Assembly: GCA_945863205.1 (NCBI GenBank)
Contig: CAMAZK010000014.1
Location: 1 to 40,224 of the forward strand
Length of the DNA: 40,224 nucleotides
Direction of reading: 5' to 3'
Source: Akkermansia muciniphila
GTDB lineage: Bacteria; Verrucomicrobiota; Verrucomicrobiia; Verrucomicrobiales; Verrucomicrobiaceae
Below the pieces are notes generated by a model. That model did no database searches and was not told the origin of the DNA. It saw only the letters and a program-made list of their open reading frames with translations. Positions within the stretch are counted from its first letter, which is position 1; each line of letters opens with the position of its first letter. The translations under genes were made by a program, and so were the position numbers. This document shows, piece by piece, positions 6,377 through 15,195 of the stretch.

Positions 6377-6903
6377 TCCTGCCCCTTCGCAGCCTTGCCA
6401 CGATTGTCGGATGACGTGGGCCTTCTTCATGAAGCTGTGGAGCGACAGGGACGTGCGGGAGAGCGTGACGCCGAGGCATTTAGAGCGGCGGATTTCACTG
6501 TCGAGTTCGCCCAGCGGCATGCGCTGGGCGGGCCCTTGCTCGTGCGCCACTCACTAGCTTATAAATTCGGACCGCCCATTTTGTCAGCCAGTTGCACCCT
6601 TTCCCCGTTTCCCTGCCCCAGCTTGCGCATCGCCTCAGGTGGCTCGCCCGATGATCGACCTCCTCCGTCTGCGGCGGCAACCTGCGGCTCTTGAGCTCCT
6701 CGCTCACCGCCCGCTTGTCCAGTCGCTCCGCCATCTCTCGCCGACCCGCCGCCGTGTCTGCCAAGTTGAAGGCCTTGAGGCCGGCTGCAGCATCCAGCAC
6801 CTTGCGGCCGCGGTGGGAGTTTGGGTGCGCAACCCCTGCTTTTTCCTGCGTTCGGGGGAAATCGGCGTGGAATTGTTGCGGGACCGTGCTCGCTTCAGCC
6901 TGC
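6377..6903. other. 527-nt intergenic region, no convincing gene
   Basis: Open frames exist on both strands, but none has recognisable protein motifs or a convincing start. A 48-codon frame begins at ATG 6411 (MTWAFFMKLWSDRDVRE) and ends at the TAG near 6555; it could be a small gene or a gene remnant. A strong hairpin lies at 6508-6530. An AT-rich patch near 6560 (TTGCTC, 18 nt, TATAAA on the plus strand) could be a promoter but lies ~340 nt before the next gene. Much of 6640-6900 reads like decayed coding sequence; I cannot name its origin. Confidence 0.45.
6508..6530. repeat. Perfect 9-bp inverted repeat
   Basis: Arms CGCCCAGCG and CGCTGGGCG flank a 5-nt loop. The stem is very GC-rich. It has no T tract on either side, so it is not a classical intrinsic terminator, though it could stabilise a 3' end. 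It sits 131 nt after the large dehydrogenase gene. Confidence 0.45.
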
Positions 6904-11523: not shown

Positions 11524-12429
11524 TCAGAACCGGATGCACATGTCCATGGTCAGACGGTTGTTCGTCAGACCGTAGGGGCGGATCGCGGCGATCTCGTAGG
11601 CGACGCCGAAGTCCACGTTGTTGAGAACGCGGCTGCGGAAGCCGACCCCGAGCATGCCCTGGGTGACGCCGCTTGTGTTGCCGCCGCCGAAGTTGATCAC
11701 ATCGTAGCCGTTGCCGCGCAGGCCGGGGATGTTGTTACCATCGCTGAGGCTCGTCCAGAAGTTCGCCGTGACGAAGGGGATGAACCAGCGGCAGGTGTAA
11801 TAGTCCACCATCACGCCGTAGTTCGCCACGAGGTTCTGTTCGTTGCTCACCACGGGGATGCGCAGTCCCACGTTTCCGGTGATGTGCAGGTCGCCGTAGC
11901 CCTTCTGAAACGAAACGAAGGGACGGAACTCGCCGCCGCCGCGGCCCTGGAAGATTTCGCGGTCACCTGTGGGGATGTGGAAGGTCAGGCCGGGCGTGAG
12001 GATGAACTGATTCGCCGCGTCGTCGATGAGCGCATACTTGAAGCCTGCGGCCAGATCCATCCAGCCGTCCACGTCCAGGACAGGTGAGTCGATGTCAAAG
12101 TGGCCGTCCAGCGTGGCGATGAGGCCGAGGCGCTCCGTCGCCGCGTAGCGCAACTGCACCGCGAAGAGCGTGGCGTGCCCGCCCTGGGTGATGAAGCTGT
12201 TGTCGATCGTGTGATAGACGAAGATCGGGCGGATCTCGGAACGGATCACCGGATCTTCGAAGAACACCGGGTTGGTGACGGGGGCGATGGTGTGCGCTTT
12301 CCAGTCGGCTGCCTCCACCGGGGTCGGTGCGGGCGTGCCTGCGGTGGCTGTGGAGAGTGACACGGCTGCCAGCGCACTGAGACCCAGTGCGGGCAACCAA
12401 CGGTTACGGGAGGTTGGTTTGTGGTCCAT
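11524..12429 (-). CDS. Outer-membrane beta-barrel-like protein
   Basis: ATG 12429 was chosen because the signal peptide (DHKPTSRNRWLPALGLSALA and onwards to ATAG) starts there; an upstream in-frame start at 12483 would add 18 residues that look non-coding. The 301-residue product is made of alternating amphipathic strands rich in aromatic and small residues (ATLFAVQLRYAATERLGLIA, FVSFQKGYGDLHITGNVGL, GFRSRVLNNVDFGVAYEIA). It ends in MCIRF, with the terminal Phe typical of proteins inserted by the BAM machinery. It resembles generic 'transporter' or phenol-degradation-type barrel proteins, but no substrate can be assigned. A strong terminator follows the gene. The methyltransferase stop lies 57 nt upstream on the same strand, so both may share a transcript. 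Confidence 0.82.
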   Translation of the reverse strand: MDHKPTSRNRWLPALGLSALAAVSLSTATAGTPAPTPVEAADWKAHTIAPVTNPVFFEDPVIRSEIRPIFVYHTIDNSFITQGGHATLFAVQLRYAATERLGLIATLDGHFDIDSPVLDVDGWMDLAAGFKYALIDDAANQFILTPGLTFHIPTGDREIFQGRGGGEFRPFVSFQKGYGDLHITGNVGLRIPVVSNEQNLVANYGVMVDYYTCRWFIPFVTANFWTSLSDGNNIPGLRGNGYDVINFGGGNTSGVTQGMLGVGFRSRVLNNVDFGVAYEIAAIRPYGLTNNRLTMDMCIRF

Positions 12430-12486
12430 GCGAGAACAAAAGCACAGCCGGGGCCGCTTCGATCCGCGTGGATTGGCATCCATTGC

Positions 12487-13155
12487 TCAAGTTATGCGGC
12501 GAGCTTGAGACGCAGTATCGGCACGCCTCCATACCGCGCTGTAAAGCATGCCGTGATCCATCTCCACGCATCGTTCGCAGGTGAATCCGTGCGCTTGGAG
12601 AAGCGGGGCTGGATCCACCAACTCACGACCGGACAGGCGAGTCATCATGCGGAAGAAAAGGTAAAGGATTCCCACGACGAACCGGCTCCGCGCACGCCGC
12701 AGCCCCGACGCGGCGATTTGAAAATCCGACACCACCCACCGGGCGCCTCCCTCACCGGCACTGGCGATGCGCGGGATCAAAAACCGCAGTTGATCCCCGC
12801 GAAAGCAGTCGAGGAAGAAACAGGTGACGATGAGATCGAAAGCGGAGGCCGCAGGTTCCCAGCTCAGCGCATCCGCCTGCACAAATTCCACTTTCGCAGC
12901 CTCCAGCCCCGCCCGCCGCAAACGCGATCGTGCGAGGTCGATCATCACCCCGCTCTCCTCCACCACCGTCACCCGCGCCGCCGGGAAGCGTCGCAGCAGC
13001 TCCGCCAGGAAGCGGCCGTTCCCCTCGCCGTAAATGAGCACCCGCTCCGGCGGCGGAATCGCATCCAGCAGCGCCACACGACAGCGCTGAAGCCGTTCCC
13101 GGGCAAACAACGCCTCGATCCAGCGGTAGTGCGGCGCCAACCGGTCAAAACTCAT
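12487..13155 (-). CDS. Class I SAM-dependent methyltransferase
   Basis: The 222-residue protein has a Rossmann methyltransferase layout. It begins MSFDRLAPHYRWIEAL, like UbiE-type enzymes. Motif I is VLIYGEGNGRFLAEL, motif II is the acidic VTVVEESGVMIDLA, a motif III-like segment is VEFVQADALSWEP and motif IV is FDLIVTCFFLDCF. A hydrophobic segment near residues 155-170 (FVVGILYLFFRMMTRL) could be a membrane-facing helix, suggesting a lipid or quinone-like substrate; that is inference. It is divergent from exonuclease III with a 93-nt spacer and is followed 57 nt later by the barrel protein gene. Confidence 0.85.
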   Translation of the reverse strand: MSFDRLAPHYRWIEALFARERLQRCRVALLDAIPPPERVLIYGEGNGRFLAELLRRFPAARVTVVEESGVMIDLARSRLRRAGLEAAKVEFVQADALSWEPAASAFDLIVTCFFLDCFRGDQLRFLIPRIASAGEGGARWVVSDFQIAASGLRRARSRFVVGILYLFFRMMTRLSGRELVDPAPLLQAHGFTCERCVEMDHGMLYSAVWRRADTASQARRIT

Positions 13156-13248
13156 GCTTCAGCAGGAGCCGAAATCGACCGACGACGCAACCTTCGCCGA
13201 TTCCTTCCTTTCCCGGCTTTAGTTTCCAGCCTATTTCGTCTTCCCCTC

Positions 13249-14004
13249 ATGAAGCTCACCTCCTGGAACGTCAACGGCATCCGCGCCTCCCTCAAAAAAG
13301 GTCTCCGTGAATACATGGACACCTGCGATGCCGACGTCATCTGCCTGCAGGAAACGAAAGCACAGCAGGAGCAGGTCGATCTCGACTGGTTCACCGGCTA
13401 CGACGCCGTCTGGAACAGCGCAGAGAAGAAAGGCTACTCCGGCACGCTCATCCTCAGCCGCGTGCCTTTCAAGACGACCACGCTCGGGCTCGGCATCGAC
13501 GAGCACGATCGCGAGGGTCGGCTCATCACCGCCGAGTTCCCAGACTTCTACGTCGTGAACGTTTACACGCCGAACTCCCAGGCCGAACTCGCCCGCCTCG
13601 ACTACCGCCTGCGCTGGGACGATGCCTACCGCGCTCACTTGAAGAAGCTGGAGAAGAAAAAGCCCGTCATCGCCTGCGGCGACCTCAACTGCGCCCATCA
13701 GGAGATCGACCTCGCCAATCCGAAGTCAAATCGGATGAACCCCGGCTTCAGCGACGAAGAACGCGCCAGCCTCACCCAGCACCTCGACGCCGGCTTCCTC
13801 GATGTCTTCCGCCAGTTCGACCCCAGCCCGGGCCGCTACACCTGGTGGACGCAGCGCACACCCGATGCTCGGGCAAAGAACATCGGCTGGCGTTTGGATT
13901 ATTGGCTCGCCTCGGAGAAGCTGAAGCCCGCGCTCAAGTCATGCACCATCCGCGATGACATTCACGGCAGCGATCATTGCCCGGTGGAGCTGGTCGTTGG
14001 GTAA
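13249..14004 (+). CDS. xth: Exodeoxyribonuclease III (xth/exoA family AP endonuclease)
   Basis: The 251-residue protein starts MKLTSWNVNG, the exact family N-terminus, so ATG 13249 is the start although the frame is open from 12421. Catalytic residues of the EEP nuclease fold are visible: Asn7, Glu35 in LQETK, Asp145 and Asn147 in GDLNC, and the Asp242-His243 pair in GSDHCPVEL. The enzyme cuts DNA at abasic sites and removes 3' blocking groups during base excision repair in the cytoplasm. Length and motif spacing are normal. A palindromic repeat begins 19 nt after its stop. Confidence 0.96.
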   Translation: MKLTSWNVNGIRASLKKGLREYMDTCDADVICLQETKAQQEQVDLDWFTGYDAVWNSAEKKGYSGTLILSRVPFKTTTLGLGIDEHDREGRLITAEFPDFYVVNVYTPNSQAELARLDYRLRWDDAYRAHLKKLEKKKPVIACGDLNCAHQEIDLANPKSNRMNPGFSDEERASLTQHLDAGFLDVFRQFDPSPGRYTWWTQRTPDARAKNIGWRLDYWLASEKLKPALKSCTIRDDIHGSDHCPVELVVG

Positions 14005-14023
14005 AAAGCGTCCATGTCCGCGC

Positions 14024-14180
14024 CAGCGTCGTGGAGTGCGGTGGCAGAGATGCAAGGGGCACCTTGCATCGGCGACGCCGCTGTCGCGAGCATGATGCAG
14101 ATTCGTGAATCCCAGTCGTCTTCGAGAGCGCTGACGGCGGTGTCGCGCTTTAGCGCTTGCCACCGCACTCCACGACGCTG
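14024..14180. repeat. 157-bp palindromic element with perfect 23-bp terminal inverted repeats (MITE-like)
   Basis: The ends 14024-14046 (CAGCGTCGTGGAGTGCGGTG plus GCA) and 14158-14180 are perfect reverse complements over 23 bp. Between them are further inverted repeats, for example GATGCAAGG/CCTTGCATC around a GGCA loop (14049-14070), and GACGCCGCTGTCGC- and GACGGCGGTGTCGC-like stretches. No protein is encoded; open frames across it are by-products. No clear target-site duplication is seen. The form fits a miniature inverted-repeat element or a large REP-like repeat inserted between the xth gene and the convergent MmcQ/YjbR gene. Confidence 0.8.
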
Positions 14181-14197
14181 CCGTGAATCTCGCGTCG

Positions 14198-14563
14198 TTA
14201 CGACGCTCGTCGTGTGGCGATCTCCTCCCGCACCTTCTTTGGCAGCGCCCCGACCACGAGCTGATACGAATGCTCCACCAGTTCACGCACGAGCTTTGGC
14301 GGCACGCTGCCGTCGAGCAAGACGGTGTTCCAGTGCTTCTTGTTCATGTGCCAGCCAGGCTTGATGCCCTTGTACTCATCGCGCAACTCGACGGCGCGTT
14401 CGGGGTCGCACTTGAGGTTGATGCGCGGCGGAAAATCCTCCGGCACGGTGATGGCGAACATCTTGCCGCCCACCTTGTAAACCAGCGCCTCGGGGCCAAA
14501 CGGCGTCGTCTCCTCCGCACCGGGCAGGCTCAGGCATTGAGCGATGACTTCCGGCAGGTCCAT
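14198..14563 (-). CDS. MmcQ/YjbR family protein
   Basis: The 121-residue protein matches the MmcQ/YjbR family: LSLPGAEETTPFGPEALVYK, the KMFAITVPEDFPPRINLKC strand pair, the GIKPGWHMNKKHWNTVLLDG segment and the C-terminal helix with ELVEHSYQLVVGALPKKVR. The fold is CyaY-like; many members are annotated as DNA-binding proteins, but the cellular role is unclear. The start ATG 14563 gives a normal family length; an open extension to 14800 overlaps the SprT-like gene and is discarded. The gene follows the SprT-like gene by 5 nt and is the last member of the cysE-sprT-mmcQ minus-strand group. Confidence 0.92.
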   Translation of the reverse strand: MDLPEVIAQCLSLPGAEETTPFGPEALVYKVGGKMFAITVPEDFPPRINLKCDPERAVELRDEYKGIKPGWHMNKKHWNTVLLDGSVPPKLVRELVEHSYQLVVGALPKKVREEIATRRAS

Positions 14564-14568
14564 GGTCT

Positions 14569-15195
14569 TTACTTTTTCACCAGCACCAGCTTGAAGCGCT
14601 CGTCGTAGCGGCCGCCGGCGTGCTTGTTGCAGCAGGACAGGCAGGCGGTGGGTGCGCGGAATTTGCGCACGCGATGCACCGGCTTCTGGCAGGCAGGGCA
14701 GGCATAGATCAGTTTTCGCGTGACCTCCTTGCGTGGTAGCGGCAGGAGGTGATGCGCCTTTTCTCCCGGGATGCCCAGATCGGCGCAGGCCTGACGCCAC
14801 TCGCCGCCGTGCGGCTCGATGCGGCGGCGTCCGCTGCGGTGGTAGGCAATGAGATGCGCCAGCTCGTGCTTCAGCGTGCGCTCCACCTGGCCTTCAAAGT
14901 CACGCAGCAGCGGATTGAGCTCCACCACCCACTTCGGGTAACGCGCGTAGCCCGCCGTGCTGCGCAGCCGGGTGTTCCAGATGACCGTCAGCAGCTTCGC
15001 CCCGCCGGGAAGCCCCAGCGCCAGCAGCCAGCCGCGTGCTTGCTCCTCCAGTTCCGCGTCACGCCCGGACTCCGCGGCTTCCTCCGGCATTTCTGGCGGG
15101 TCTTCCGCCTTCAGGTCGCGCACGGACTGAAACGGCGTCCACACGGGGGATGCCGTGAAGTCGAAGCAGAGCTGGGCGAAGTCGCGCATGGTCAC
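14569..15195 (-). CDS. SprT-like zinc metalloprotease domain protein with C-terminal zinc ribbon
   Basis: The 208-residue protein contains the zinc protease signature HELAH (His110-Glu111-His114), then the third-ligand region EPHGGEWRQAC with His129, as in SprT/SPRTN proteins. A C-terminal zinc ribbon follows, with Cys166/Cys169 (CPAC) and Cys185/Cys188 (CLSC). SPRTN-type proteases digest DNA-protein crosslinks; bacterial SprT-like proteins are less well understood. I chose GTG 15195, because its 4-nt GTGA overlap with the cysE stop and a GGAG 8 nt upstream suggest coupled translation; ATG 15189 is the alternative. Closeness to xth may hint at DNA repair, but the operon partners are metabolic or unknown. 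Confidence 0.88.
   Translation of the reverse strand: MTMRDFAQLCFDFTASPVWTPFQSVRDLKAEDPPEMPEEAAESGRDAELEEQARGWLLALGLPGGAKLLTVIWNTRLRSTAGYARYPKWVVELNPLLRDFEGQVERTLKHELAHLIAYHRSGRRRIEPHGGEWRQACADLGIPGEKAHHLLPLPRKEVTRKLIYACPACQKPVHRVRKFRAPTACLSCCNKHAGGRYDERFKLVLVKK

Follow-up and report, generated by a model that had tools for sequence, protein, structure and literature searches.

Research on REP sequences and their RAYT enzymes has mostly concerned Proteobacteria and the GT[AG]G guide. In Pseudomonas fluorescens SBW25, REPINs are described as two inverted REPs with a variable spacer, which form a hairpin, show compensatory changes and occur as dispersed extragenic copies; a RAYT in trans is flanked by the same REPs, and the REP type is tied to the RAYT type (PMC3116915). 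REPs have also been described in a verrucomicrobial genome, that of Opitutus terrae, where they are paired and most GTAG-20 elements carry GTGG (PMC3733652). In the present study, a repeat was analysed in a window of 40,224 nucleotides, the whole stretch of DNA under examination. This repeat is very probably a REPIN, in which a variable loop separates two inverted REP palindromes and which has its cognate RAYT in the same genome.

The element lies between two convergent genes, one encoding an Exo_endo_phos domain (12421-14004, forward strand; PF03372, E 2.2e-33) and the other a YjbR domain (14198-14800, reverse strand; PF04237, E 2.8e-35), and neither an Rfam family nor a tRNA was found in the window. 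An earlier note had described a 157-bp MITE-like element with perfect 23-bp inverted ends. The ends are indeed exact inverted repeats, at 14024-14046 (forward) and 14158-14180 (reverse), and an inverted-repeat search returned them as a 26-nt pair of 96% identity. The extent needs to be widened to about 14019-14185, without assigned strand, because the conserved arms run outward as small CGC-loop-GCG hairpins at which the boundaries were set. From outside inward, each arm consists of this outer mini-hairpin, a tag (N)TGGA[GC]T and a palindrome GCGGTG...CACCGC, in the loop of which a further hairpin is nested. In the left REP, on the forward strand, these parts are the mini-hairpin CGC-GCCA-GCG (14019-14028; assigned from the sequence and the genus pattern), the tag GGAGT 5' of the palindrome foot (14033-14037; the window copy reads GTGG-AGT), the nested hairpin (14049-14070) and the 5' side of the inner stem (14073-14085), which also closes the left palindrome with GCGGTG. 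A variable loop without assigned strand (14086-14132) leads to the 3' side of the inner stem (14133-14145, forward), placed by folding and paired-change analysis, and to a short, poorly conserved hairpin of the right REP (14146-14155, forward). The right tag GGAGT (14167-14171) and the right mini-hairpin, with one G-T pair (14176-14185), were read from the sequence of the reverse strand. The additional interior inverted repeats of the earlier note are thus present, and its description of a dispersed, non-coding repeat of MITE size is one with which we agree.

The 157-nt strand folds as DNA at -63.1 kcal/mol compared with -33.8 for shuffled sequences (z -9.3, reached by 0 of 200 shuffles) and as RNA at -106.9 kcal/mol (z -9.9). 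For the analysis of paired changes, 26 full-length copies of one architecture were aligned, 15 from the own genome and 11 from relatives, other fetched copies being excluded. Pairing was kept in 93.0% of 1214 cells, reaching 96.1% in the outer stem and 54.5% in the short hairpin of the right REP. Changes on both sides of a pair were observed in eight pairs and 25 cells, compared with 4.0 and 5.5 upon shuffling (25 cells in 0 of 500 shuffles), and the number of such cells exceeded that of all six slid versions of the structure; the first hairpin alone showed both-side changes in four of its nine pairs. These counts support the outer stem, the inner stem and the first hairpin. In the alternative fold, in which each arm closes on itself (GCGGTG with CACCGC), 99.4% of the stem cells are paired. 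Since these self-closing stems are equally well kept but nearly invariant, both folds, arm to arm and each arm self-closed, are possible. In some relatives, the arm with the long hairpin is the opposite one, or both arms have it.

The own genome is a draft of 4.95 Mb in 420 contigs (78.75% complete). A nucleotide search of this draft gave 57 matches, tallied as about 30 separate places, and a 20-mer of the end was found at 37 sites compared with four for the reversed pattern (up to three mismatches). The element is therefore neither single-copy nor confined to its own genome: matches were obtained in 16 of 37 genomes, the own genome included (24 of the genus, counting the own one, and 13 others of the order), and all 16 belong to the genus. 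Over 48 genomes, the arm pattern gave 516 matches and the reversed control pattern 40. Among the matches listed for named genomes, the repeat occurs in Brevifollis gellanilyticus, in Prosthecobacter and in further bins of Verrucomicrobiaceae, as well as in a few that bear the labels Methylacidimicrobium, subdivision 3 and Limisphaerales. A match in Acidovorax (L203), judged by reading to sit inside a LysR-like coding sequence, was taken as chance. The perfect ends had been read as a sign of recent spread, a reading that does not hold. The nearest full-length copy in the own genome is only 81% identical, and among 15 own copies the mean pairwise identity is 80% overall, 94-98% in the stems, 74-76% in the hairpins and 58% in the loop. 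Because the stems are kept while the loops have diverged, the perfect match of the two ends is the expression of a constraint seen in nearly all copies.

Half-elements and tandem arrays of the element also exist. One array in the own genome (L062, G000:C78:7579-8001) repeats every 190 bp with a common spacer and comprises two or more full copies together with part of a third; similar arrays were seen at L285 and L157. About 23 bases into one arm of a Prosthecobacter debontii bin (L172, end near 6385-6406), the element is interrupted by an insertion, the reading frame of which resembles, by eye, the start of an IS66-type TnpA; insertion sequences may thus target these repeats. An outward-facing pair of copies 3.4 kb apart (L174) was considered as a transposon and rejected, because a peptidase-like open frame and another full copy of the element lie between the two.

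The absence of an obvious target duplication was confirmed, with a direct repeat of at least 4 nt abutting the element in none of 27 copies (42 fetched copies less 15 in which one end was missing, degenerate or, under the search rule, too close to the end of a contig). In most copies, CGCG stands 1-2 nt outside the 157-bp unit, at one of two spacings. Its reading as a target duplication was rejected; it is the 5' side of the outer mini-hairpin, the loop of which has 3 or 4 nt, and this accounts for the one-base offset between copies. Among REPs near the RAYTs of the genus, GCGT[CT] precedes the tag in 89, of which 83 show CGCG directly ahead of that motif, and 114 of 134 form CGC-loop-GCG with a loop of 3 or 4 and a stem of at least 3, compared with 51.6 in mononucleotide shuffles; stems longer than 3 were not enriched in the genus REPs. 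In the phylum set, stems of at least 5 were found in 16 of 79 REPs, spread over 8 of 24 loci, compared with 1.9 in such shuffles. On either side of the element, at 3-8 nt beyond the outer hairpin, copies of the own genome and its relatives show a weak TTCGA-like bias, perhaps a target preference. In three relatives (G004, G060, G042), the convergent endonuclease-YjbR junction is a short gap without the element. The comparison with empty sites yielded element-free junctions, and no exact empty site was found among these three, the intergenic bases aligning too poorly to place the insertion point; nor did the analysis reveal a transposition event or an excision product; a CCGCGCG stretch at the G042 junction is suggestive only. 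Among 29 other fetched YjbR loci, no type I arm (the nested type seen here) lay within 450 nt 3' of the gene, save one arm 431 nt away.

A transposase with matching ends is present. RAYT genes directly between element copies were first found at two loci, L157 and L163. The L163 protein matches NCBIfam NF047646 (REP_Tyr_transpos) at E 2e-23 and 82.9 bits, barely above the 80-bit cut-off, and PDB 4er8 (TnpA-REP) at E 3.7e-6, and it scores 21.7 bits against Pfam Y1_Tnp, slightly below the cut-off of 23. A search with this protein gave matches at E <=0.001 in 38 of 48 genus genomes, weak distant ones counted. In the own genome, a RAYT 73% identical to that of L163 lies at G000:C282:6025-6552 and is open through 185 codons; a full element lies upstream, and a second begins right after the stop codon and is cut by the contig end. 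Its residues N69-H70-Y71-H72 and Y131, which from knowledge of HUH enzymes we take to be catalytic, are invariant across 28 aligned RAYTs. IS200-like Y1 genes were also considered as the mover and rejected. Among 30 loci from the search and 20 placed loci, only two, both in G005, had an arm nearby, and these were taken as chance neighbours since they have their own inverted repeats. No good arm was seen in a further set of Y1/RAYT loci (22 places, 20 loci).

The type of REP palindrome follows the RAYT clade, as judged from the sequences compared. The 52 fetched RAYT loci were initially labelled as 20 type I, 9 type III, 6 type II and 17 without type, by a type I rule of two mismatches that had wrongly included three loci: L291, the palindrome of which is simple GGCGGC, and its clade mates L292 and L306, which have the same stems. 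After these were dropped, 17 loci with type I arms remained, and they fall in three neighbouring clades, the only unlabelled member of which (L319) lies near a contig end. The type III rows form one clade of nine (support 98/91) and the type II rows one of six (88/93), and type labels shuffled on the RAYT tree never scored as low (0 of 200). In a further RAYT clade (L303, L304, L305, L321-L323), the REPs are of the GGACTGCGGCAGCC type and lack the outer CGC hairpin. Where a genome has the RAYT clade that matches type I, the median number of arms is 15.5 (n=16), versus 2 where that clade is lacking (n=32; one-sided Mann-Whitney p 4e-5, a test that treats related genomes as independent). However, the arms do not need a matching RAYT in the genome. 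In seven genomes that lack a clade-I RAYT, 12-87 arms were counted (G005 87, G018 30, G042 15, G012 15, G037 13, G001 12 and G002 12), and the two richest of these, G005 and G018, are 99% complete. Such arms could stem from loss of the enzyme, from the action of a sister enzyme or from vertical inheritance.

The association extends beyond the genus. A RAYT at E 1e-30 or better was found in 33 of 288 genomes drawn from Verrucomicrobiota, and the 27 loci that were new relative to the genus set were examined for tagged palindromes, defined as GGA[GC]T followed by 6 nt with their reverse complement within the next 62 nt. Such a palindrome occurred within 350 nt of the RAYT at 24 of 27 phylum loci, on both sides at 19, and at 700-1050 nt at two, a count that was not blind, since the REPs of the genus and an initial list of those of the phylum had been seen before the rule was fixed. 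The corresponding numbers at the genus loci were 44 of 52 within 350 nt and 1 of 52 at 700-1050 nt, and near control Y1 genes the palindrome was found at 1 of 30 IS200-like and 4 of 20 other loci. By the fixed rule, 8 genus and 3 phylum RAYT loci had none. Among 150 distinct REPs near RAYTs, tallied without nested/simple labels, the length cut of which fails to separate the types, T stands directly before GG in 124, and GT does so in 11. The canonical GT[AG]G tag is therefore not general among these REPs, and neither GTAG nor GTGG at 1 nt from the stem was clearly enriched at the phylum loci. Herein, we lean slightly towards the view that an old REP/RAYT superfamily extends throughout Verrucomicrobiota, its tag (N)TGGA[GC]TGC and its close GCTTT staying constant while the palindrome varies by clade and some lineages have gained nested and outer hairpins. 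Such a superfamily would add a third REP tag to GT[AG]G and CGTC, and its enzyme-repeat specificity could be read from sequence. A constant but differing tag combined with a clade-varying stem offers natural enzyme-substrate pairs for asking whether the RAYT reads the tag, the stem, the loop or the outer hairpin, and the persistence of such sequence populations could be followed in genomes that have the repeats but lack the matching enzyme.

The features observed at the locus are those of a REPIN: an inverted REP pair able to fold, dispersed copies, conserved arms with a variable spacer, and a RAYT with these REPs on both sides. The perfect ends, the size and the dispersal would also fit a MITE that a DDE transposase mobilises through 23-bp terminal inverted repeats, but this is very unlikely to be the correct reading, given the lack of target duplication in all 27 copies, the half-elements and tandem arrays, the covarying internal hairpins and the finding that the genes seen between facing copies are Y1/HUH RAYTs whose clades are tracked by the REP type. 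"MITE-like" is accordingly apt for the size and loose as a name, since the element is a REP doublet and not a deletion derivative of a DDE transposon. The earlier preference for a REP-type transposase over a DDE enzyme is borne out by association, through the Y1/HUH RAYT that has copies of the element beside it, both in the own genome and in relatives, and movement itself is what we infer from it.

The element might instead be a signal kept by the host in RNA or DNA, such as a bidirectional terminator, an mRNA-stabilising sequence or a gyrase/IHF-type site, now copied little or not at all, with the RAYT link a relic. Its place between convergent genes, the stability of the fold as RNA, the diverged loops and the many copies in genomes without the matching RAYT are in keeping with this possibility, which nevertheless seems improbable, because the copies are not kept at orthologous sites, the RAYT retains an intact reading frame and catalytic residues, and REP type and RAYT clade track each other. 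It may be partly true, since REPs have also been reported to act at the level of RNA (PMC3733652). Chance or an assembly artefact, to which the several copies at contig ends of drafts could point, is extremely improbable in view of the fold (z -9.3) and the excess over the reversed pattern (516 versus 40 in 48 genomes), and is refuted by the many mid-contig copies in independent assemblies, some on contigs over 1 Mb. For the preferred reading, a REPIN, a working like that of known REPINs is suggested by the anatomy and the RAYT association, and recognition, cutting and copying by the RAYT would proceed as follows. The arms would fold while the locus is single-stranded during replication or repair, and a RAYT encoded elsewhere in the genome would recognise the tag and hairpin. 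Using its tyrosine, the enzyme would nick the strand and attach it at a new site, leaving no target duplication. Copies might thus spread slowly, with the arms remaining constrained and the loops drifting.

No description of the REP family of the window element was found in the literature on repeats, REPs, REPINs and RAYTs of Verrucomicrobia and Prosthecobacter; the words Verrucomicrobi and Prosthecobacter are absent from the main text of PMC6006769, and among the matches listed for the string GGAGTGCGG, none concerned REPs by title. The main doubt on novelty is a possible common superfamily with GTAG-20 of O. terrae, which is likewise verrucomicrobial, paired and associated with GTGG (PMC3733652). 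The O. terrae REPs may overlap with the present family, GTAG-20 having been compared by its description with the superfamily form NTGGAGTGC...GCTTT. CGTC-tagged REPs have CGTC at one end, a stem of 8-9 bp, a loop of 4-5 nt and no transposase. The genus does have GCGTC 5' of the tag, but with another stem and loop and with an associated RAYT. With TnpA-REP and the GT[AG]G REPs, the present system shares a single-domain Y1/HUH enzyme, the REPtron layout and a conserved tag 5' of the hairpin foot, but GTGG in the window copy lies 3 nt from the GCGGTG foot and not at 0-2 nt, and the RAYT motif, N-H-Y-H with Y-[TV]-H-x-N, corresponds exactly to no single listed subclass (PMC8266576, PMC6006769). 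With the SBW25 REPINs, the likeness lies in the doublet, the compensatory changes, the dispersal, the RAYT flanked by the same REPs and the tie between REP type and RAYT. The window element differs from these in its arms of about 60 nt, the nested hairpin in the REP loop, the outer mini-hairpin, the tag (N)TGGA[GC]T and the verrucomicrobial host (PMC3116915). Its number is also smaller, about 30 copies in a 79%-complete draft compared with the hundreds typical of Pseudomonas. The element is thus of a known kind, a REPIN, which departs from the described systems in its tag and its nested hairpins.
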